From Leptotrichia wadei (GTDB lineage Bacteria; Fusobacteriota; Fusobacteriia; Fusobacteriales; Leptotrichiaceae), in contig NZ_AP019829.2 of the NCBI RefSeq assembly GCF_007990545.2, positions 682,001-746,000 of the forward strand: 64,000 bases of DNA. Reading direction: 5' to 3'. Below, one piece after another: positions 7,100 to 58,163 of this stretch. Numbering within the stretch: position 1 is the stretch's first letter; every line of letters starts with the position of its first letter. Position numbers and translations under genes: made by a program. The notes beneath the pieces are model-generated. The model made no database searches, was not told the DNA's origin, and saw only the letters and a list, made by a program, of their open reading frames with translations.

Positions 7100-7213
7100 A
7101 AAAATAAAAAAAACAGGGTAGGAACTACCCGAAGAGCTTGGTAAATATATTTGGTTAACAAAAGCAGATACTTCCCAAGAAGCTCCCGCTTCTAAAAGCG
7201 GGAGTAGTTCACT
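7100..7213 (+). ncRNA. Putative omega (reRNA) scaffold region of IS copy 1
   Basis: This non-coding stretch between the tnpB stop and the element's right end is strongly conserved in copy 2. It contains the hairpin GGGTAG-gaa-CTACCC and the right-end hairpin CTCCCGCTT/AAGCGGGAG at 7183-7204. In TnpB systems the guide RNA ends at this boundary and continues into the flank as guide. The transcript itself is inferred. Confidence 0.55.
7183..7204 (+). repeat. Right-end subterminal hairpin of IS copy 1
   Basis: A perfect 9-bp stem, CTCCCGCTT with AAGCGGGAG, closes a 4-base loop. It is identical to the hairpin at 24675-24696 in copy 2. Confidence 0.8.
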
Positions 7214-7214
7214 T

Positions 7215-7262
7215 GAAACAAGACGGGCTTTAATGAAAAAATTTAAGGAAGTGGCTGATTAA
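7215..7262 (+). pseudogene. 16-codon remnant of an interrupted transporter gene, right of the IS
   Basis: Immediately right of the element an open stretch reads ETRRALMKKFKEVAD followed by TAA. This resembles the ETxRxAL helix near the C-terminus of NikA/DppA binding proteins, so it may be the tail of the truncated gene at 4364. It could instead be the end of a deleted permease or ATPase gene. It has no start of its own. Confidence 0.4.
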
Positions 7263-7308
7263 GATATTTGATGAAAGTGAGAATAAATAATTGATGGAAG
7301 AAGAAAAG

Positions 7309-8088
7309 ATGAATAGTGAAAATAATATTTTGTTAAAAGTGTCAAATATTACTAAAAGTTATACTGAAAAGAAATTTTTGAAAAAATCAGTAAAGAATGT
7401 GTTAAACGATGTTTCGTTTTCACTAAAAAAGGGAAAATGTCTTGGAATTATTGGAGAAAGCGGGAGCGGAAAAAGTACGCTTGGAAGGATTTTGACTGGA
7501 ATTGAAAATGCTGATGGTGGAATTGTTGAATTTAAAGGAAAAAATATTCATGCAAAGGAAAATAAATATCTCAAAAGAGAAATAAGCATTGTTTTTCAAA
7601 ATTATGTATCTTCTGTAAATCCAAAATTTTCTGTTGCTGAAATTATTGCCGAGCCATTAACAATCGAATCTCAACTAAAAAAAGATGAAATACAGGAAGA
7701 ATTAAAAAAATTGATAGAATCTGTAGGGCTTTCTGAAGAATTTTTGCAGAGATTCCCCAATGAACTAAGCGGAGGACAGCTTCAAAGAGTGTGTATAGCA
7801 AGGGCAATTGCAACAAAGCCTAAGTTTATTATGTTAGATGAGGCTGTAAGTTCACTTGATGTGTCTACACAGGTGGAAATTCTGGATTTATTGCAGAAAT
7901 TGAAGAAAGAGTATAATTTGTCGTATATTTTTGTAACGCACGATTTGCTTACGATAACTTATATTTGCGATAGCATAATATTTTTTCGCAATGGAAAGAT
8001 TGAAGAGGAAATTTCTGATATAAAAAATTTAAAAAATATAAAAAAAGATTATTCAAGAAAGCTCTTAAATGCAGTAATAGAATTTTGA
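7309..8088 (+). CDS. ABC transporter ATP-binding protein, Opp/Dpp/Nik F-type
   Basis: The 259-residue ATPase has Walker A GESGSGKST, the Q-loop VFQNYVSSVNPKFS, the signature ELSGGQLQRV, Walker B FIMLDEAVSSLD and the His switch FVTHD. It is typical of the second ATPase (DppF/NikE) of peptide or nickel importers. The ATG at 7309 is preferred because GGAAGAAG lies 5 bases upstream; the frame extends to a TTG at 7291. No permease gene and no partner ATPase are found, so the transporter encoded here is incomplete unless the missing parts lie elsewhere. Confidence 0.88.
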   Translation: MNSENNILLKVSNITKSYTEKKFLKKSVKNVLNDVSFSLKKGKCLGIIGESGSGKSTLGRILTGIENADGGIVEFKGKNIHAKENKYLKREISIVFQNYVSSVNPKFSVAEIIAEPLTIESQLKKDEIQEELKKLIESVGLSEEFLQRFPNELSGGQLQRVCIARAIATKPKFIMLDEAVSSLDVSTQVEILDLLQKLKKEYNLSYIFVTHDLLTITYICDSIIFFRNGKIEEEISDIKNLKNIKKDYSRKLLNAVIEF

Positions 8089-8090
8089 TA

Positions 8091-8120
8091 TTTACATTCA
8101 CAGAATAAAAATGTTATAAT
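8091..8120 (+). promoter_or_regulatory. Possible promoter upstream of the LysR gene
   Basis: TTTACA and TATAAT are separated by 18 bases, just after the ATPase stop codon. A second TATAAT lies closer to the gene, near 8217, without a clear -35 box. Either could start the regulator transcript. Confidence 0.45.
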
Positions 8121-8253
8121 GTAGTAAAATTATTTTAAAATCGAATTTAAAAATTATAACTGTTTTACTTAAACTCTAAGATTATGTAATTTTATAAGTT
8201 TGATTTTAAGGTTCGAGTATAATATAAAAATATATGATTGGAGAGAAATAAGT

Positions 8254-49026: not shown

Positions 49027-50334
49027 GTGAAAAATACACTTAAAATACTAATTTTTCTAGTATTTATGGCTTGCAGTAACAGTAAAAGCGAGGAATTGAA
49101 AGAAAATAAAAGTACAAATGAACAAATGGCACAAATTAATACAATTCCCAAGCAAGATAAAAGCTGTATTGAGCTAGGGAAATATAATATTAGTGCTGAA
49201 AAAATAGAATTAAAAAATAAAGGATTGGAGGAGATAAATTGTATAACAGATTATAGAAATGTAAAAGTTCTAGATTTACGTTGGAATAAAATTAAGGATG
49301 TAAAACCGTTGAAAAATCTGAAAAAATTGGAAGTTTTAAAAATAAATTTTAATCAGATAGAGGATATAAAGCCTTTGTTAAATTTAATAAATATAAAGGA
49401 ATTGTGGCTACATAACAATAAAATAAGTGATATTAGAGGAATTGGGAAATTAACAAAATTGGAACATCTGGATATAAGTTTTAATCCGCTAAAAAATGGA
49501 ATTAAGGAAATTTCTGGATTGAAAAGGTTAAAAAGGCTCGAATTACGGGAAGTTCCAAAGGAAATAGTGGATTATGTGTATGAAGATTATCATAATTTTA
49601 TGATTCCTGAAAAAATATTTATTGAGCAAAGATATCCAGAACTTGCTAAAAAACGTGAAAATGAAATAAAATATCCAAATTTTTCAAAGTTTGAAGATAA
49701 AATAAACGGTTTTGAAACTGTGAAAATTATAAGGGAACTTTCCACAAAAGAAGTTGCATTGAATAAATTGCCTAACGAAGTTTATAAAATAGTTGATGAG
49801 TATGATAAAAACTCTGAAGAAGCTGATGATAAAGTGGAGGGAGCAGCTTTTTTTACAAATAATGTTTATTCAATATACACTCTTACTTATCCTTTTGCTT
49901 ATGCTGGGCAGTCAAATAGTGAAACTGTCTTTGTGAAAAATGGAAAAGTGATTGCAAGAGATACTGTAAATTTAGATTCTCAATTGGAAAGTATTGATGG
50001 AAATAATCTGTTTTTATCGGCAGTTGCAGCAAGCGGGGGAACAAATTATGCAATAACTGATATGAAAAGTGGACAGATGTGGCGAGAAGAATTCAGAGAT
50101 TTTGGATTAACATCGTCTAAGGGAATGGGTAAAGTTTTTGTAACATCTTCAAAGGAAAATACTGTCAATGTAAGAGAAAGCAATGACTTAGACAGTTCAA
50201 TAATTCATAAATTAGCGAATAATGTTGAAGTTGAAGAAATTTCAGATGAGAAAGACTGGAAATATGTGTATTTTTATAATAAAGAGGGGGGATATTATAT
50301 GAAAGGGTATATACATAAGAGTCAGTTAAGATAA
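49027..50334 (+). CDS. Lipoprotein with leucine-rich repeats and a C-terminal SH3-like domain
   Basis: The 435-residue protein begins at a GTG behind AGGAGGTAAC and has a lipoprotein signal (FLVFMACSNS). About four internalin-like LRRs (residues about 65-165) follow the LxxLxLxxNxIxDI pattern, for example VLDLRWNKIKDVKPLKNL and LWLHNNKISDIRGIGKL. The middle region (about 230-360) is unrecognised. A bacterial SH3-like domain ends it (VNVRESNDLDSSIIHKLANN to about 435). LRR and SH3b suggest protein and cell-wall contacts in the periplasm. It lies 47 bases upstream of the large effector-like gene; a linked role is inferred only. Confidence 0.82.
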   Translation: MKNTLKILIFLVFMACSNSKSEELKENKSTNEQMAQINTIPKQDKSCIELGKYNISAEKIELKNKGLEEINCITDYRNVKVLDLRWNKIKDVKPLKNLKKLEVLKINFNQIEDIKPLLNLINIKELWLHNNKISDIRGIGKLTKLEHLDISFNPLKNGIKEISGLKRLKRLELREVPKEIVDYVYEDYHNFMIPEKIFIEQRYPELAKKRENEIKYPNFSKFEDKINGFETVKIIRELSTKEVALNKLPNEVYKIVDEYDKNSEEADDKVEGAAFFTNNVYSIYTLTYPFAYAGQSNSETVFVKNGKVIARDTVNLDSQLESIDGNNLFLSAVAASGGTNYAITDMKSGQMWREEFRDFGLTSSKGMGKVFVTSSKENTVNVRESNDLDSSIIHKLANNVEVEEISDEKDWKYVYFYNKEGGYYMKGYIHKSQLR

Positions 50335-50381: not shown

Positions 50382-53300
50382 GTGGTAAATAGGAAATTTA
50401 ATGGGGTAGATATTGGAGATAGTGCGGTTGCATTTTTTGAAAAGCTGGCTAAATTAGAAAGTGGCGGAAAGTATAATTTAGCAGATCAAAAATATTATAT
50501 TGGAAAATATCAGATTGGGACGGATGTTTTAATGGACATGGGATGGCTTCCGAAGGGTTCGACTTGGGCAAATGCCAGATTCATTGGTGAAGGTGCCACA
50601 AAATGGAAGTTAAAGGGGAAACAGAGTTTTTTAAATAATCCAGCGGCACAAGATGAAGTAATAATGCGTTCAGTAAAAATGAGATGGGCAACCTTGAAAA
50701 AACATAAGGATAAAATTTGTAAAAATATATCTGTTCCTAAAAATGCAGTTTATATAGCACCAGGAAAAGTTAGAGCTTCTGAAAGTAAAGTAAAAACAAT
50801 AATAATGAAAAAGAGAAATCAAGGATACAAAGCAGAAGATTTGAGGGGTAAAAGTTTTTTGCTTACATCGTCTGGAATGCTGGCAGCTTCACATTTATGT
50901 GGTCAAGGTGCAATGTCTAATGCTTTGGGAAATAATTTTAAAGGTGTCTGGGGAATACCGGTAGATGGAAATGCAATGCCATCATTGCTTTATGCTGTAA
51001 ATTTAGCAGGGCATGATTTATCAGTGATTATTGGATTTAAAGATAATTGTGAAGTGGATCACAAAGTTGTAGAGAAAAATCATACACAAACTGATAATAA
51101 AAATATAAATAAACAGGCTACAATTCAGTCAAAACCTAAATCTAATGTTTCAAGTAACTCTTTACAAACACAAAAAGAAGTTTTGACACTAAATAATGCT
51201 AAAACTGAAAGTGATGAAAGTAATAAAGAAGGTGTATTTTCATTTAATGGTCAAAAATTTGAGGAAGTTTGGGATAGTGAAGAGTATAAAAGGGATAGAG
51301 CTGAAAATGGGAAAGCTCCTGAATTGGCATTTGTAAATCCTGATGAGGCGATTTTGAAAAGGCTGCAAGCTAAATTTCAAGATGAAAATATTTATAATGA
51401 GGATTATGTAAAATATTTAGAAACTAAGACAGGGAAAAAGGTGCTGGAAGAGAATACGGAAGATATAAATGTCATTTTGAAGATGTATGATGAGGCGACA
51501 AAGGACAATGATAAGATTGGGAATGTGATAAGGCAGCATGGATTTGATATTTTAAGGGGAAGAGAGGAAAATAATGAGATTTTGCGGATACAAGATATAG
51601 TTTATTATATTTATTCGTATCCTATTCCTAATAAAAGTGCTATAGAATCATTAGAATATGTACTTGGTCAATATTCAGCAAGATATGTGAAATATCCTGA
51701 TAAAAAACCTGTAAATAAATTCAAGGAAGATAAGAATTATGTGGATAAAATACAAAGTGTGATTCAGATATATGTAAAAGATGGAAAAACTAAAGTTGAA
51801 AAAAATCAGCTACCTGAAAAGTATGACAAGTATATGCAGGGAATAAAGGATATTGATGAAATTGTTATAAAAGTTGCTAAAAAGCCAGCTTTGGAGTTAC
51901 AGAAGACAAGATGTGAAAATTTGATAAGGGAACTTGGAGAAAATGCTGCAGAATATGAAAAAACTTATTCTATTGATGAAAATGGAGTTAGGCAGTTTCC
52001 TTTGTCGAGAAGATTGATTGACAATATAATAATTGAATTTTTGAAGGTGCAAACTGGGTTTAAGGAAGAAAATGAAACTAAGTATTTTGATAACCATGAA
52101 TATAAAGATAGCAATATTGTGAGAAATTATCTTTTATGGTATATAAAAAGACAAAAAGGAATTGATATTCCATCAAAAATTGAAAGTGGGTTATTTAATA
52201 GACTTGAAAAAATTGGGAAGGATATAAGGGTAACGACTGTCTTGAATGACTGGATAACTTCAAAATCGGCAATAAAAGTGCGGAATATTAGGAAAATAAG
52301 TGATTTGATAGATGAAGTTTATGAAAATTACAGGGATAATTCGGATTTTGAAAAGGATAAAGACATTATTTTGGGATTATTTAAAAATAGCAAGGAATTG
52401 CGGGATTATGCGGCAAATGTTGATTCAATGGATTTGTATTCCTTTTACAAGTTATTTTATGATCTGCAAAATATTATAAATCCTACTGGAGAGTTATTTG
52501 TAAATACTAATTGTATGCTAAAATGTACGCTTGGAAGGGATATTAGCCGATTAATCATAAAAGAGGACAGTGTAATGCTTGAAGGCGGAAAACAGGCTAA
52601 TATAAATGATACGAATATTCAGCCTTTTAAATCTTGCAGTGCAATTGGGACTTGCCAGCCTGCATTAATGGGGATGTGGGAGAAAAATACGGATGTAAAA
52701 GTTAGAAATAAGCCTGCATTGCTGGATATTTCAACTATTCAATGTCAGCATGGCGGAACTATAAGTATCGATGACGCTGGACAAAAGGAAGCTGGAACGG
52801 CAGTTACTAAAGATAAGGAAGTTAATGAAGCTGTTAGGGATGCTGATTGTCAATATAAACTGCTGATAAATATTTGTAGCGATGTAAATAATGATTTTAT
52901 GCAAACGCAATTAAAAAAGGAAGCACAAAAATTTTCTAAATGGAACAGATTTAAAAGTAGCACAATGAATGGTGCAAATAAGACGAAAATTCAAATTGCT
53001 GAAAAGGAGACTTCTTCAGAAAAAGAAAAATATTTGAGAGAAAAAATTTTGGATGCATTTAAAGAGGCATATAAAAGTGTAAAACAAAAATCTGGACCTG
53101 AACTTGATACAAAGGGAATAATAAAAAAACATGGGTTAAGTTTGTGTGATTACGAGCAAAAAAACTTTTATTCTGGAAAAATGTTGCCTGTAATAGCTTA
53201 TGGGTATTTAATGCGGGCTGGAAATTTGACAATAACGGAAAATGAAAAAAAACAGATTGAAGCAGAATTAAATAGCGATATAAAAACTTCAAATACAGAA

Positions 53301-54299
53301 CAGATAGAATTAAAGGATTACAAAATACAAAATAATGTAAAACAAACAAAAGAAGCTACAGATCATAAAATAAATTCTTCAGATATTACAAGCTGGATTG
53401 AAATAGGTAAAACATTATACACATCAACAGAATATCCTCCAACTGAAGTAGATGTACTAAATGCAATAAGGAAAAATGGAAAAAGAGTGGCTGTGTGTCC
53501 GTTTAGTCAACGAGAGTGGAGTGAAACTCATAATTCTTCAAAGGGATTGAATAATGTTGATGGCGTTCAGGATGATGTGAAGAAGAAAGTTGAGCAGGAT
53601 TCTAAAGATAAAAATAAAGAAGAAAGAAATAAGAATACAGATAATTTAGAAAATAATGTATCAAAAGGACAGGTTTCAACAGTTAAAGCAGATAAAAAAT
53701 TAGAAAGAAAGTCTGAAAAATGTGATATAGATAACTGCCCACATAAAGAAGTCAAAGGAAGGGCGCCATGGATAAAAGTTGCAGAAGAAGAAATGAAGAA
53801 ATATAAAGGGCAAAAAGAATCTAGCCGGAGTTTATATAATAGAATACAAAAAACATATTTTCCTTATGCAAATTTTGGAACAGATAAAAAACCTACTGAA
53901 ATTGCATGGTGTGCAGCATTTGTAACATATTGCATGAAAACAGCAGGATATAAGAATTCATCTGATCCTTCTGTTGGAGGATATGATTGGGGAGTTGCGC
54001 CAAGACCAAAATTACCAAAAAGAGGATGGTTTGAAGGTGAAAAAACTAAACCTTTTGTAGGAGCTATAGGAATTTTTAAATTTCGAAAAGGTTATAGCCA
54101 CGTAGCAATATTAGTTGGAAAAAGAAAAAATGGAATGTATGTATTTTTAGGCGGAAATCAAAATAATGAAATTAATAAAACGGCTTTTGAGCCAAGTAGA
54201 ATTGATTATTTTATGAAACCCAAAAGTTATACAGTAAAACCAGAAGAGCAAGAACTACCAATAATTACAGATTCAAAAAATACAGGTACAGTAGGATAA
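50382..54299 (+). CDS. Modular DUF4280 PAAR-like protein with two cell-wall hydrolase-like domains
   Basis: The 1305-residue protein starts at GTG behind AAAGGGGGAG and has no signal peptide. Domains: (1) about 10-225, lysozyme-like, with AKLESGGKYNL (Glu26 a catalytic candidate), YYIGKYQIGTDVLMDMGW and ASHLCGQGAM; (2) about 260-690, unrecognised, charged; (3) about 708-800, DUF4280 PAAR-like, with NCMLKCTLGRD, FKSCSAIGTCQPALMGMW and IQCQHGGTISIDDAGQ; (4) a linker to about 1120; (5) about 1125-1290, NlpC/CHAP-like, with EIAWCAAFVTYC (Cys1177), YSHVAILVGKR (His1240) and FLGGNQNNEI. DUF4280 proteins sit at tips of contractile injection systems. I infer a secreted peptidoglycan-degrading effector. 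A small lipoprotein follows 10 bases later. Confidence 0.75.
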   Translation: MVNRKFNGVDIGDSAVAFFEKLAKLESGGKYNLADQKYYIGKYQIGTDVLMDMGWLPKGSTWANARFIGEGATKWKLKGKQSFLNNPAAQDEVIMRSVKMRWATLKKHKDKICKNISVPKNAVYIAPGKVRASESKVKTIIMKKRNQGYKAEDLRGKSFLLTSSGMLAASHLCGQGAMSNALGNNFKGVWGIPVDGNAMPSLLYAVNLAGHDLSVIIGFKDNCEVDHKVVEKNHTQTDNKNINKQATIQSKPKSNVSSNSLQTQKEVLTLNNAKTESDESNKEGVFSFNGQKFEEVWDSEEYKRDRAENGKAPELAFVNPDEAILKRLQAKFQDENIYNEDYVKYLETKTGKKVLEENTEDINVILKMYDEATKDNDKIGNVIRQHGFDILRGREENNEILRIQDIVYYIYSYPIPNKSAIESLEYVLGQYSARYVKYPDKKPVNKFKEDKNYVDKIQSVIQIYVKDGKTKVEKNQLPEKYDKYMQGIKDIDEIVIKVAKKPALELQKTRCENLIRELGENAAEYEKTYSIDENGVRQFPLSRRLIDNIIIEFLKVQTGFKEENETKYFDNHEYKDSNIVRNYLLWYIKRQKGIDIPSKIESGLFNRLEKIGKDIRVTTVLNDWITSKSAIKVRNIRKISDLIDEVYENYRDNSDFEKDKDIILGLFKNSKELRDYAANVDSMDLYSFYKLFYDLQNIINPTGELFVNTNCMLKCTLGRDISRLIIKEDSVMLEGGKQANINDTNIQPFKSCSAIGTCQPALMGMWEKNTDVKVRNKPALLDISTIQCQHGGTISIDDAGQKEAGTAVTKDKEVNEAVRDADCQYKLLINICSDVNNDFMQTQLKKEAQKFSKWNRFKSSTMNGANKTKIQIAEKETSSEKEKYLREKILDAFKEAYKSVKQKSGPELDTKGIIKKHGLSLCDYEQKNFYSGKMLPVIAYGYLMRAGNLTITENEKKQIEAELNSDIKTSNTEQIELKDYKIQNNVKQTKEATDHKINSSDITSWIEIGKTLYTSTEYPPTEVDVLNAIRKNGKRVAVCPFSQREWSETHNSSKGLNNVDGVQDDVKKKVEQDSKDKNKEERNKNTDNLENNVSKGQVSTVKADKKLERKSEKCDIDNCPHKEVKGRAPWIKVAEEEMKKYKGQKESSRSLYNRIQKTYFPYANFGTDKKPTEIAWCAAFVTYCMKTAGYKNSSDPSVGGYDWGVAPRPKLPKRGWFEGEKTKPFVGAIGIFKFRKGYSHVAILVGKRKNGMYVFLGGNQNNEINKTAFEPSRIDYFMKPKSYTVKPEEQELPIITDSKNTGTVG

Positions 54300-54309
54300 A
54301 GGAGATAAA

Positions 54310-54894
54310 ATGATAAAATTACTAATTAAAATAATAATACTAGCTTTAATTTCATGTTGTAGTAAAAATAATGACAATTTGTTTAATAATATTAAGTATA
54401 AAGAAAATATAGAAAAAAAGCCACAAAAGATATTGCAAAAAATGAGTTTTGATAATAAAAAATTGAATAATAAGGAAATGACTGTATCACTTAAAAGGAT
54501 TATTGATACTGTTGTTACGGCTCGGAAAAGTAAAAGTTATACATTAGAAAAATATGATGAAGATATTTTTAAAAAATATAGAGAATATTTTGATGATACC
54601 CAAAATAATAGTGAGTTTTTTGAAAAAACTTCAAATTTACTTTTAGAATTAAAGAGTGAATTGAGTAATTTAAATTATGTCAAAAATATTAAAAAGTCCG
54701 TGAAAATTAAAGGTGCTAATTACAGTTGTTCAATTCAAATAACAAAAAAACCTGAAAAATTAGGATATGTTGATGGAGATGTATATGGTACAGTTAGCTG
54801 TTCTTCGGAATATGATTCGATGAGCAGGTTTGAAGAAATTTATTTAAAAAAAGTAGGTGAGAAATATTATATATTAGATTTATTAATTTCATAA
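54310..54894 (+). CDS. Small lipoprotein, candidate immunity protein to the upstream effector
   Basis: The 194-residue protein has a lipoprotein signal (IIILALISCCSK). The mature domain has a Lys/Asn-rich linker, a helical part (about 60-125) and a beta part with LGYVDGDVYGTVSCSSEYDS near the end. No family is recognised. AAAGGAG precedes the ATG, and the gene lies 10 bases after the effector-like gene, so the two are translated from one mRNA. Periplasmic lipoproteins placed directly after cell-wall-hydrolase toxins often neutralise them; that role here is inference from position. Confidence 0.6.
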   Translation: MIKLLIKIIILALISCCSKNNDNLFNNIKYKENIEKKPQKILQKMSFDNKKLNNKEMTVSLKRIIDTVVTARKSKSYTLEKYDEDIFKKYREYFDDTQNNSEFFEKTSNLLLELKSELSNLNYVKNIKKSVKIKGANYSCSIQITKKPEKLGYVDGDVYGTVSCSSEYDSMSRFEEIYLKKVGEKYYILDLLIS

Positions 54895-55010: not shown

Positions 55011-57227
55011 TTGACTGAAAATAATTTTTATGGTATTAAAAGTAATTTTGAAAGGAATATGAGGAATAAAAATGTTATAAATCAGACTAATCGAACTATT
55101 TTGTTTGAGGAAATTAATCCAGAGAAAATGGATATTTTGACACTTGTTAATGATGCTAGAAATATGGATTCGTTGGATGATGAAAATATTATTGAGATTA
55201 ATAGGCATCTTTTGGTTGGGAGTTTTGAGGAGTTTTTGGAAAAATTTGATCCGAAAGTGTATAGTTATTTTGATGCAGAGAGTCAGAGTATCAAGTATAT
55301 TTTGAAAAAACCTGAAGGAGTACCTGAGGATCTTGTGACAGAAATTAAGATTAATAATGGGAATACATTTTTTAAAATGCTAAGTACATTGATTGAAGCT
55401 AGAAAGTCACAAGGGAATAGAAATGTAGATTTTAAGTTTGAAAATATTTTGGAGTTAATTTCTCCGAAAAAGGTTATTGAGGATATTAAGCAGACAAGAA
55501 AAGAGATTGCTCATATTTTTCAGAAGTATGAAGAATTGGATGATGAGAATCCTAAAAAGTTAGAATTGGGGGATAAACTTAATACAAAGTTTGAGGAGGC
55601 TTCTGAAAATTATAGTAATGTACTTGGAATGTTGCCGCTTGCAATTGAAGACATAAAAACTCGGCTATTAATTGGAAATGATTCGAACAATTTTAAATCA
55701 GAGAAAATAAAATTGGGAATGTTACAGGTTGGAGAGAAAGGAGAACTTGAGGTAATTGAGTATAAGCAGGAAAATCAAAATTCACTTGCGATGATTGAAG
55801 AAAAAAATACAACAGCTCTGGTTGAGGCCTTTAGGGATGACTATGAAAATGTGACAGATGAACCAAATAAGTATATTAGTGATTTGGTTGTTAGAACATT
55901 TGTGCCGCTTGCGAAAACATTTGTGGATGTAGATCCTAAGCAGGAAGTTCAAAATTATAATAATTATTTGGCATTTTATAAATCGGCTCAAGAGGATTTT
56001 ATAAAAATTGCGAAGCCTTTGATTGAAAAAATATTGGGTGTGAAAATGTTTTTTGAGCAGTATGATGTTAGAATGGGGCTTATGAAACCGACACTTTTGA
56101 TTACAAATGTAAAACCTGAAATGATTGTAAAGGCTGGAAATAAGGATAAATTACGTGCATTTTTGAATACGACTAATGAGAAAAATGATTTTGATAATAC
56201 AGTATGGTTTGGGATTTATCCAAATGTTGATTTGGATATGAAAAAATCAGAGAAAAAAGTTCGTGAAAGATTTATGGGGACTAAAAATGAGGAAAAAACA
56301 GAGAAGAATACAATAGAAGTATTAACAAATTTAATGACTGTTTTGGCAGAATATAAAGTTCAAGTATTTTTTAACTTTGAAGGAAAGCCTGAAACTTCAT
56401 TTGACAATCTTGCAACAACTGGTGTAGATAAATATATTGAAAAAACTCAAATTTTAGAAAATCAAAAATATTCAGAATACTTAGTTCCAGTAATTCCTAA
56501 TTTTACAATAATTCCAAAGGATAAATCAGGAGTTATGCTAGATTATAAAATGAAATTTGAAGAGGAAACAGGAGTATTGCTTTCAAAAGAACAGGAAGAT
56601 TTGTTAAAATTTTGGATAGAAGGTGTGTATATAGATGCATCTTATGTTGCAGCTGGAATAATTAGTGCGATACAATGTCCAAATTATCTAAAGGAAAGAT
56701 TTTCAAATGTATCGCCGCTTTATCCAGGAGTACGTTTTGATATTGAAGAAAAGGATAACTCATATCATGCGAAAACAACAATGTCTAAGGAAATATCAGG
56801 ATTTACAAATACAATAAAAGATAGAATAAATCAGTTTAATTATGGATTCGTATTTTCATCGGATAATGCGAATGTAGCACGTGAAAAAATTAGAAATATT
56901 GTCGTTTATAAGGCAAGAACTTTGCTAAAAAATCTAGATGGAGGATATGAGCCGCTTTATAAGACACTTACAACGACTTACATTGAAAGAACATTGAGAT
57001 TTACGACAACAGATTTTAAAGAAGACAAATTAAATATGTTTTTTAGCACAAATCCTGAAAGTCAAAAATCAATTTGGTTAAAAGATACAAAATTTGTAAA
57101 TGGAATTATGCAAAAGGGAGATGACTTATCTCATGTGATTGATGCAGATAATGGAATTTGTCAGCTAAATATAACTTTTGCAGGAAATTTGAAGAATTTG
57201 CAGGTTGAAATTAATAAAAATTATTAG
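55011..57227 (+). CDS. Large protein, possible contractile-sheath homolog (TssB/TssC-like)
   Basis: The product has up to 738 residues and no signal peptide or membrane helix. I do not recognise a firm family. The N-terminal part (ILTLVNDARNM, then RHLLVGSFEEFLEKFDPKVY) is reminiscent of T6SS TssB/TssC openings. The segment VYIDASYVAAGIISAIQCPN recalls the sheath loop PPSGhVAGIYAR, and the C-terminus (NGICQLNITFAGNLKNLQVE) ends in strands as sheath proteins do. This is weak pattern evidence. The start is unclear: TTG at 55011 has a poor site, ATG at 55059 (MRNKNVINQ) has AAAGGA. It lies downstream of the effector-like operon and upstream of a baseplate-like gene. Confidence 0.5.
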   Translation: MTENNFYGIKSNFERNMRNKNVINQTNRTILFEEINPEKMDILTLVNDARNMDSLDDENIIEINRHLLVGSFEEFLEKFDPKVYSYFDAESQSIKYILKKPEGVPEDLVTEIKINNGNTFFKMLSTLIEARKSQGNRNVDFKFENILELISPKKVIEDIKQTRKEIAHIFQKYEELDDENPKKLELGDKLNTKFEEASENYSNVLGMLPLAIEDIKTRLLIGNDSNNFKSEKIKLGMLQVGEKGELEVIEYKQENQNSLAMIEEKNTTALVEAFRDDYENVTDEPNKYISDLVVRTFVPLAKTFVDVDPKQEVQNYNNYLAFYKSAQEDFIKIAKPLIEKILGVKMFFEQYDVRMGLMKPTLLITNVKPEMIVKAGNKDKLRAFLNTTNEKNDFDNTVWFGIYPNVDLDMKKSEKKVRERFMGTKNEEKTEKNTIEVLTNLMTVLAEYKVQVFFNFEGKPETSFDNLATTGVDKYIEKTQILENQKYSEYLVPVIPNFTIIPKDKSGVMLDYKMKFEEETGVLLSKEQEDLLKFWIEGVYIDASYVAAGIISAIQCPNYLKERFSNVSPLYPGVRFDIEEKDNSYHAKTTMSKEISGFTNTIKDRINQFNYGFVFSSDNANVAREKIRNIVVYKARTLLKNLDGGYEPLYKTLTTTYIERTLRFTTTDFKEDKLNMFFSTNPESQKSIWLKDTKFVNGIMQKGDDLSHVIDADNGICQLNITFAGNLKNLQVEINKNY

Positions 57228-57284: not shown

Positions 57285-58163
57285 ATGATTGAAAATAAAT
57301 ATCCGATATTTGGGAATGGGCAGGTGATAAATAAGGAAGCACTTGATTTATTGAGGGATAATCCTGCGGAATTGACGGATTTATTATATTTGGATAAAAA
57401 AGATGGAATAATCTCGGGATTTGACCTTATTACAGATTTAGATAATAAAAAAGTTACTGTGACAAGGGGAATTATTAAATATAATGAAAAAATCTTTTGG
57501 ATGAATGAAGATTATAAATTTAATATGCCTGAGATTGAGAATAGATATATTTTGAAATTAAAATTATTTTCAGATTTTGAAGAAAGAAAATTTTATATTA
57601 GAAGTGCTGATTTTTCATTGGAAATTTTAGATATTGGAGCGAGTAATAGTGAAAATACTGAAATTGAAAATAAAATTTCGAATGGTTTGGAAATTCAAGA
57701 AGAAAATAATAACAAAACAAAAGAACTTTGGAAAAGTAAAATTGGAGAAATTGAAATAACACGTTTTATTACTAGAATAGGAGCGGAACTTAGAAATGAC
57801 TATAATAGTTTTAGAGATTTAAGACGTGATTTTAATTTACTGGAACTTATAAATATAAAATATTCTTCAAAACATGAATTGGGGACACTTCATCCTAAAA
57901 TTTTGAAATTATTTGGGAAAGAGGCTTCTAAAAAGGAGAATTTAGATATTTATGATGTAAATTTTTATGTAAATTGTTTAAATGGAAGTGTAGAAAGAGA
58001 TGCTATAATTGCTTATATTAATTTAAAATTACAAATGGAACAGGAAAATTATACCAATGAAGAACTTTATCAGTATTTAGTTAAAATTTTGGATAATTTA
58101 GGAAAAGACAGAAAAATTACTGAGAAAAAGAGAGTTATTCCTAGAAAAATAACTATTGAATAG
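57285..58163 (+). CDS. Unrecognised protein, possible phage-tail/baseplate-type component
   Basis: The 292-residue protein has a beta-rich N-terminal half with a DGIISGFDLITDLDNKKVTV hairpin and TRGIIKYNEKIFWMNEDY, a style common in phage tail and baseplate proteins. A Glu/Asn-rich linker (about 120-150) and a helical C-terminal half follow. No family was identified. GGGGGAAAA precedes the ATG, and it follows the sheath-like gene after 57 bases. Context with a DUF4280 protein suggests an injection-apparatus part, but this is inference. Confidence 0.5.
   Translation: MIENKYPIFGNGQVINKEALDLLRDNPAELTDLLYLDKKDGIISGFDLITDLDNKKVTVTRGIIKYNEKIFWMNEDYKFNMPEIENRYILKLKLFSDFEERKFYIRSADFSLEILDIGASNSENTEIENKISNGLEIQEENNNKTKELWKSKIGEIEITRFITRIGAELRNDYNSFRDLRRDFNLLELINIKYSSKHELGTLHPKILKLFGKEASKKENLDIYDVNFYVNCLNGSVERDAIIAYINLKLQMEQENYTNEELYQYLVKILDNLGKDRKITEKKRVIPRKITIE

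Follow-up and report, generated by a model that had tools for sequence, protein, structure and literature searches.

PAAR-like tip proteins are recognised by four conserved metal-binding cysteines, and PAAR-like domains with predicted enzymatic extensions are known in general (PMC5349215). The DUF4280 domain has been noted in Gram-positive bacteria, where a phage-like translocation system was raised as a possibility in 2016 (PMC5349215), and a 2021 article describes Gram-positive DUF4280 tip proteins as having no recognised injection machine and speculates on an unknown phage-like translocator (PMC8651086). The gene described here is located at 50382-54299 on the forward strand of a 64,000-nucleotide stretch of Leptotrichia wadei DNA (contig NZ_AP019829.2, positions 682,001 to 746,000; hereafter the window), in a genome of 2.34 Mb. 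Its product shares the PF14107 domain and the four conserved cysteines with the DUF4280/PAAR-like (IglG-type) tips of the PAAR_H class, but differs from them by a predicted wall hydrolase on each side of the domain, by the exchange of both ends among relatives, and by a linked secreted gene. We consider it likely that this protein is the spike tip of a contractile injection machine, with two predicted wall-cutting warheads and flanked by protector lipoproteins.

TseP of Aeromonas is a bifunctional wall hydrolase of the type VI secretion system (T6SS) with a glycosidase-like and an amidase-like half; the two-half layout is the same as here, but for TseP no DUF4280 tip is known at the centre of the protein. 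In common with the canonical T6SS, the machine described below has a VgrG-like spike, a sheath-like protein with a T6SS-like fold (in a weak model), a candidate tube, FHA proteins, a Ser/Thr kinase and a PP2C-like protein. It differs in that the sheath-like protein is one chain of 738 aa and in that DnaJ and a protein with what we take to be an actin/Hsp70-like nucleotide motif accompany the machine. In addition, none of 98 Fusobacteriota genomes gave a match to TssB (PF05591) and the genome that holds the window gave none to TssM (PF06761), with positive E. coli controls for both, and for this reason the machine was not filed as a T6SS. Its mode of action is probably that of a T6SS. With extracellular contractile injection systems (eCIS; Pvc/Afp) it shares the spike: a profile of four VgrG-like relatives matched a solved VgrG (E 2.6e-7), Pvc8 (E 0.0018) and further contractile-system spikes. 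The operon content appears unlike that of an eCIS operon, in a comparison for which the eCIS AAA ATPase and Afp11/12-type baseplate proteins were not searched for. Finally, the polymorphic toxins (PMC3482391) have a constant core, a variable toxin end, a cognate downstream gene and an extra immunity-like gene, all of which are seen here, whereas in the present family both ends vary and the core is a spike tip.

Beyond the single effector, it appears fairly likely that Fusobacteriota and many Bacillota, including the single-membraned genera Paenibacillus and Brevibacillus, have in common a contractile machine that has not been described so far. Its sheath would be a single TssB/TssC-like chain, its tube Hcp-like and its spike VgrG-like, and it would further comprise DUF4280 tips, an FHA-kinase-PP2C switch, and DnaJ with an actin/Hsp70-like ATPase replacing ClpV. 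This would be the "unknown phage-like translocation system" postulated for the Gram-positive DUF4280 proteins, and the window would encode one of its tips, a dual-warhead antibacterial one.

The tip protein and its modules

The tip gene and the regions of its product are as follows.

50382-54299, + strand: predicted dual-hydrolase DUF4280 spike-tip effector, open reading frame with a GTG start, 1305 aa
50382-51041, + strand: putative N-terminal lysozyme-like module, about residues 1-220
51222-52499, + strand: conserved central region, about residues 281-706, aligned in 16 close relatives
52509-52784, + strand: DUF4280 PAAR-like tip domain (Pfam PF14107), residues 710-801
53793-54215, + strand: C-terminal CHAP module, predicted amidase/peptidase (Pfam, NCBIfam), residues 1138-1278 with Cys1177 and His1240

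Effectors were read in selected stretches of the 34 Fusobacteriota genomes that have DUF4280. The 16 close relatives, the window included, were used for the tree and the counts of flanking genes, and six distant relatives (L137-L141, L145) were added for the CHAP and cysteine counts only. A truncated copy of the L125 gene (L062) was kept outside the effector counts and served only to show the presence of the upstream gene family 10 in genome G066.

The Pfam search placed DUF4280 on residues 710-801 (E 9.1e-14, 52.4 bits against a gathering cut-off of 26.3), and its cysteines C715, C752, C758 and C788, candidate metal-site residues, are kept in 22 of 22 relatives. CHAP was placed on residues 1173-1258 (E 6.3e-7, 30.2 bits against a gathering cut-off of 26), and NCBIfam TIGR02594 matched residues 1138-1278 with E 1.5e-15, at 57.7 bits under its cut-off of 70.55. 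Residues 1059-1299 also matched a PHROG of baseplate hub and tail lysozyme (E 8.7e-14), and the C-terminus matched phage endolysins. Both Cys1177 and His1240, the candidate catalytic pair, are kept in all 11 CHAP-type relatives, six of them distant. The central region gave no Pfam family above the curated cut-off. No signal-peptide-like stretch was seen in the first 60 residues, in which hydropathy over 15-residue windows reaches 0.81 at most, compared with 1.8 and 2.6 at the starts of the two flanking lipoprotein-like genes. Promoter-like sites were not enriched (62 observed against 59.2 in shuffles).

These results bear out part of what a sequence-only reading of the stretch had proposed, namely a DUF4280 tip domain, a C-terminal Cys/His pair at the residues named above, the absence of a signal peptide, and a dependence on an injection apparatus, for which candidate genes (sheath-like, VgrG-like, tube and kinase/FHA/PP2C) were located in the genome. 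Its "NlpC/CHAP-like" C-terminus was narrowed to CHAP, which passed the Pfam cut-off, no NlpC family having been matched. Overall, the sequence gives good support to a polymorphic spike-tip effector that carries a CHAP hydrolase.

In seven other DUF4280 proteins of Fusobacteriota (L132-L136, L142, L143) the domain forms the C-terminal end of chains of 900-1600 aa, the remaining parts of which gave no Pfam family above cut-off.

The N-terminal module contains LESGG at residues 25-29 and GKYQIG at residues 41-46. In an alignment of 16 relatives of residues 1-250, 14 matched PHROG 27932, labelled "baseplate hub subunit and tail lysozyme" (E 7.4e-6 for the window protein and 1.1e-10 at best), and 11 weakly matched the C-terminal domain of aggregation-promoting factor (best E 0.0019). 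Glu26, the glutamate of LESGG and a candidate catalytic residue, is kept in 14 of the 16. Single phage proteins annotated as tail lysozymes matched this stretch weakly (E 0.01), and an IMG/VR scan with the N-terminus returned no relative. In L034 and L127, from other genera, the whole module is replaced by a phage-endolysin-like one (PHROG 181, E 9.3e-39 and 5.6e-32, respectively), with a Pfam GH19 match below cut-off in L034 only (E 0.012). Since both N-terminal forms resemble wall lysins, the N-terminal slot appears to carry wall-lysin-like modules. The N-terminus of the window protein is thus probably a second wall-lysin module, which may have a lysozyme fold.

Exchange of modules and the flanking lipoprotein genes

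By their last 150 residues the 16 close relatives were sorted into four groups, and at E 1e-3 BLAST matched no member of one group to a member of another. From one to three members per group were classified with Pfam, and the others were assigned by BLAST.

CHAP group, 5 of 16: window, L034, L052, L053, L054
VanY/M15 carboxypeptidase group, 3 of 16: L033, L055, L131
DUF5675 group, 6 of 16: L057, L059, L061, L125, L127, L129
Amidase_3 group, 2 of 16: L128, L130

The alignment of the DUF5675-type members to the window protein stops at residues 1126-1127, directly before the CHAP module, in four of six, and at 1071 in L125 and 853 in L129. On a tree of the core (residues 281-806) the C-terminal types need seven changes, the minimum possible being three, and they are barely more clustered than shuffled labels, a value as low being obtained in 30 of 200 shuffles. 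It follows that the ends were swapped among closely related cores.

The genes on both sides of the tip gene are predicted to encode lipoproteins.

54310-54894, + strand: lipoprotein-like gene (family 21) with a lipobox-like ALISC (read directly), candidate immunity protein for the CHAP module
49027-50334, + strand: leucine-rich-repeat (LRR) lipoprotein (family 10) with a lipobox-like VFMAC (read directly) and a C-terminal SH3_3 stretch, candidate immunity protein for the N-terminal module

Family 21 lies directly downstream of the effector in five of five CHAP-type close relatives and in none of the 11 of other types. In the same way, family 44 is found within three genes after the DUF5675-type effector in six of six (directly after it in five) against 0 of 10 others, family 55 follows the VanY-type effector in two of three, and the two Amidase_3 members (L128, L130) have a downstream family of their own in common, n1046. 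The downstream secreted gene thus changes with the C-terminal enzyme, as expected from an effector-immunity logic, and this link is strong as judged from gene content. The product of 54310-54894 is probably an immunity protein, predicted to neutralise the CHAP module. The antibacterial reading is strengthened by the swapping of the C-terminal module together with this candidate immunity gene. The DUF5675-type locus L057 has an additional family-55 gene at 7189-8142, with MORN-like repeats by eye, that resembles an orphan immunity gene, as if immunity genes were collected.

For the upstream gene, Pfam matched LRR_4 (E 1e-18) and, under its cut-off, SH3_3 (E 3.3e-5). Family 10 is found upstream in 11 of the 14 relatives with the window-type N-terminus and in neither of the two with the other N-terminal type, both of which carry a different upstream gene, n1017. 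The link of the LRR gene to the N-terminal module is therefore suggestive.

Sheath-like gene and apparatus genes in Fusobacteriota and Bacillota

Two further genes of the window, and four sites elsewhere in the same genome, were assigned to the putative delivery machine.

55011-57227, + strand: contractile-sheath-like protein, 738 aa in one chain (family 0), by Foldseek and VIA-align; the gene following family 21
57285-58163, + strand: conserved neighbour of the sheath-like gene (family 1), possibly a baseplate protein, by its position next to family 0
G000:C1, about 1,403,100-1,410,400: VgrG-like gene with families 17 and 18
1,058,401 in the window genome: tube candidate
About 420,000-428,800 in the window genome: kinase/FHA/PP2C/family-6 set
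C1:316000-335999 (about 316,000-336,000) in the window genome: second, partly decayed apparatus set (L120)

A role of family 0 as sheath had been guessed from its operon position before any fold search, and this prediction passed, though from a weak model. The AlphaFold model from 24 sequences was of low confidence (predicted local distance difference test, pLDDT, 39.7) and was used for fold comparison only. With it, Foldseek ranked the contracted VipA/VipB sheath of the T6SS best of 350,542 PDB chains (E 0.033, probability 0.92), the second-ranked chain having E 0.35. Among the 50 VIA-align matches listed, nine were T6SS sheath entries, with Z 7.2-8.3 over 196-241 residues of the model region about 302-650, a level to be read with caution, since models that lack a clear match often reach a best Z of 7-8. 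The other 41 aligned 138 residues or fewer, mostly on long helices at about 118-225.

At sequence level, family 0 matched none of the named tail or secretion families. Profiles of the sheath-like and tube families showed no signal against alignments of TssB, TssC, TssB+C and Hcp; as the positive pair TssC/TssC2 scored 100%, kinship of family 0 to TssC, if any, would be remote. No signal was obtained either against tail proteins of T4, P2, Mu and phiM9 or against single Rhizobium T6SS proteins, comparisons of little power, in which even the VgrG-like family stayed below 7% with everything. The sheath-like protein had no tblastn match at E 1e-5 in 50,697 phage records and no match in plasmids, and it is 93-98% identical in the nine congeners that keep a window-type copy. 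A match of its profile to parvoviral NS1 in PDB (40 residues, E 0.0012) and one to a PHROG of unknown function (E 5e-4, without a passing stretch) look like chance.

Family 0 was found in 34 of 98 Fusobacteriota genomes, in G076 as fragments only and in G050 as a partial copy. In most relatives it heads an operon with the 145-aa family 2, family 1, DnaJ, two FHA proteins, a PP2C-like protein, a Ser/Thr kinase and family 6, and some loci also hold families 17 and 18 and the VgrG-like protein. Family 2, the tube candidate, matched TssD weakly (E 0.086) and had no PDB or profile-profile (HH) match, and family 6 (mostly 680-930 aa), the bearer of the actin/Hsp70-like motif, matched Pfam MreB weakly (E 0.025). 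Family 1 follows family 0 directly or one gene later in most of the Fusobacteriota loci read (G084, G063 and G046 differ) and gave no family match in the Pfam and NCBIfam searches. In Leptotrichia it still adjoins the sheath-like gene though other operon genes are dispersed, which suggests a tight partner.

The same apparatus set is present in the Leptotrichia genome described here, split across distant sites. The possibility that the apparatus is missing from this genome, only two of its genes being in the window, was refuted by the genes found elsewhere. The VgrG-like protein passed the Phage_GPD cut-off narrowly (30.5 bits against 30.1). The second set (L120) lacks a sheath-like gene and contains an N-truncated tube copy, a family-1 gene broken over two frames, DnaJ and a VgrG-like gene with an open frame of 564 aa.

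The components co-occur across genomes. Of the 98 Fusobacteriota genomes, 30 had all of five markers (family 0, DUF4280, VgrG-like, tube and family 6), 60 had none of them and 8 had some. For the sheath-like gene and DUF4280 alone, 31 genomes had both, three and three had a single one, and 61 had neither (Fisher p 1e-18, uncorrected for kinship). The delivery machine is probable.

Some features of individual loci were also recorded. G076 retains degenerate sheath-like and tube fragments only (C1 about 1178512-1178901, L067 region), DUF4280 not being found there, a natural loss. A 3434-aa reading frame lies near the injection operon of G063 (L041, 2124-12428), and by the same operon (L040, 10407-17621) five copies of the lipoprotein-like family 19 alternate with four of the small family 23. 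Family 19 is also multiplied beside DUF4280 genes in L133, L135 and L146.

Outside Fusobacteriota, a scan of one genome per species gave 396 relatives of family 0. Of the best 80 of the 396, which were examined, two came from Leptotrichia and one from a Fusobacteriaceae bin; the others, at 54-57% identity, were from Bacillota, chiefly Paenibacillus but also Brevibacillus, Aneurinibacillus and Clostridia. Many of these Bacillota are single-membraned. The sequence-only reading had placed the system in a low-GC diderm; this holds for Leptotrichia, but the sheath-like relatives are mostly from Paenibacillus and other Bacillota, and the system is thus wider. By BLAST over the best 80 loci, the PP2C-like family 57 was found in 73, family 17 in 69, family 6 in 68, the tube in 65, the kinase in 60, family 1 in 19 and the VgrG-like protein in 5, the loci ending 10 kb from the match. 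In whole-genome searches of 16 of these Bacillota, DUF4280 and Phage_GPD were both above cut-off in 16 of 16.

In a sample of 148 genomes from the family of L153 (Paenibacillus faecis), the sheath-like gene was present in 29 and DUF4280 in 45; 29 had both, 16 DUF4280 alone and 103 neither (Fisher p 1.2e-19, uncorrected for kinship). In 26 of the 29, the sheath-like gene is followed by a DUF4280 gene at a distance of 14.0-20.1 kb downstream, and of the other three, two have DUF4280 on different contigs only and one has it 1.26 Mb away. The genomes with DUF4280 alone were G140, G141, G158, G169 (with a match below the family cut-off), G185, G190 and ten more, for which another carrier system or fragmentary assemblies are candidate reasons.

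Alternative explanations and significance

According to the explanation that we favour, the DUF4280 domain would cap the VgrG-like spike, and contraction of the sheath encoded nearby would drive the tip into the envelope of a neighbouring bacterium. In the target periplasm the N-terminal module, a predicted glycan-cutting lysozyme, and the CHAP module, a predicted amidase or endopeptidase, would then cut both kinds of bond in the peptidoglycan mesh. The downstream lipoprotein would shield sister cells from the CHAP module and, more tentatively, the upstream LRR lipoprotein may shield them from the N-terminal one.

Several observations weigh against this explanation. The N-terminal 230 residues had no Pfam match, and the AlphaFold model of the module, built from three near-identical sequences, was unusable (pLDDT 35). 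The best matches of its profile in a PDB sequence search (E 0.018-0.35) included a lysyl-tRNA synthetase (E 0.018) and Lysozyme C (E 0.33), both of which were discounted. The glutamate and the GKYQ motif are gone in two distant relatives, L141 and L145. In the one phiM9 protein scanned, which is annotated as baseplate hub and tail lysozyme, Pfam found no lysozyme domain, and for this reason the "tail lysozyme" label of the PHROG is soft; the record of this protein mentions LysM similarity and a gp5 C-terminal domain. For the earlier proposal of a lysozyme-like N-terminus, the motifs and the PHROG label stand, while the Pfam search and the structure prediction it had called for left the fold unconfirmed. 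A double-acting antibacterial effector is favoured on the side of the C-terminal swapping and less so on that of the N-terminus. Regarding the flanking genes, the upstream LRR gene is absent in three of the 14 relatives sharing the N-terminus (L128, L129, L130), the third VanY locus (L055) has a mere short remnant resembling the family-55 C-terminus (three-frame reading, by eye), and independent pairs are too few to allow formal testing, with two of two for CHAP and three of three for DUF5675 in the same direction (p 0.5 and 0.25). As to the machine, four helical matches outranked the first sheath by VIA-align Z (8.4-8.9), no sheath was among the 50 matches listed in a viral-model Foldseek search of the family-0 model, and neither the sheath-like nor the tube family matches T6SS or phage parts at the level of sequence. 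In this genome the apparatus genes are scattered over several distant sites, the VgrG-like gene not being beside the tip gene, and 16 of the 45 DUF4280-bearing genomes of the Paenibacillus sample have no sheath-like gene.

The hydrolases might instead be a structural drill that opens the wall locally for the passage of the spike, the real cargo being something else, for which the tail lysozyme of phage T4 is the model. The resemblance of the N-terminus to phage baseplate-hub proteins, and the C-terminal matches to the tail-lysozyme PHROG and to endolysins, would fit such a role, but the exchange of four kinds of C-terminal enzyme between closely related species would be unexpected for a drill, the downstream secreted gene changes along with the enzyme, and all seven DUF4280 proteins scanned from other Fusobacteriota lacked a wall hydrolase above the Pfam cut-off; we regard this role as unlikely. 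It seems quite improbable that the enzymes cut the producer's own wall, so that the machine can assemble or anchor, and that the flanking lipoproteins only regulate them: the apparatus is constant across loci while the hydrolase type varies, and DUF4280 proteins without a recognisable hydrolase occur beside VgrG-like genes of the same kind, even if predicted lipoproteins on both sides would suit the control of self-cleavage and the tip gene stands beside the sheath-like gene in Leptotrichia.

A decaying prophage or tailocin remnant with no present function would account for the scattered apparatus genes, the partly decayed second set and the fragments in the congener G076. It is a very improbable explanation in view of reading frames free of stops, the 93-98% identity of the sheath-like protein among congeners, the matched presence and absence of the five markers, and the lack of tblastn matches in the phage records. 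An antibacterial spike tip delivered by a contractile machine remains the explanation that we prefer.

The effector varies a known theme, and the machine itself may deserve more attention. No description of such a machine was found among the open-access titles and abstract openings listed, in a search largely outside subscription journals, and it may be the unknown phage-like translocator speculated on in 2016 and 2021. In 26 of 29 genomes of the Paenibacillus sample DUF4280 follows the sheath-like gene at 14-20 kb, and the conserved operon around that gene gives concrete genes for a Gram-positive DUF4280 machine, which is directly testable. The effector family shows one spike tip fitted with two exchangeable predicted wall hydrolases. 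Hitting both the glycan and the peptide parts of peptidoglycan would make resistance by a single change hard, and the findings suggest that contact-dependent killing may be one of the forces at work among oral bacteria.

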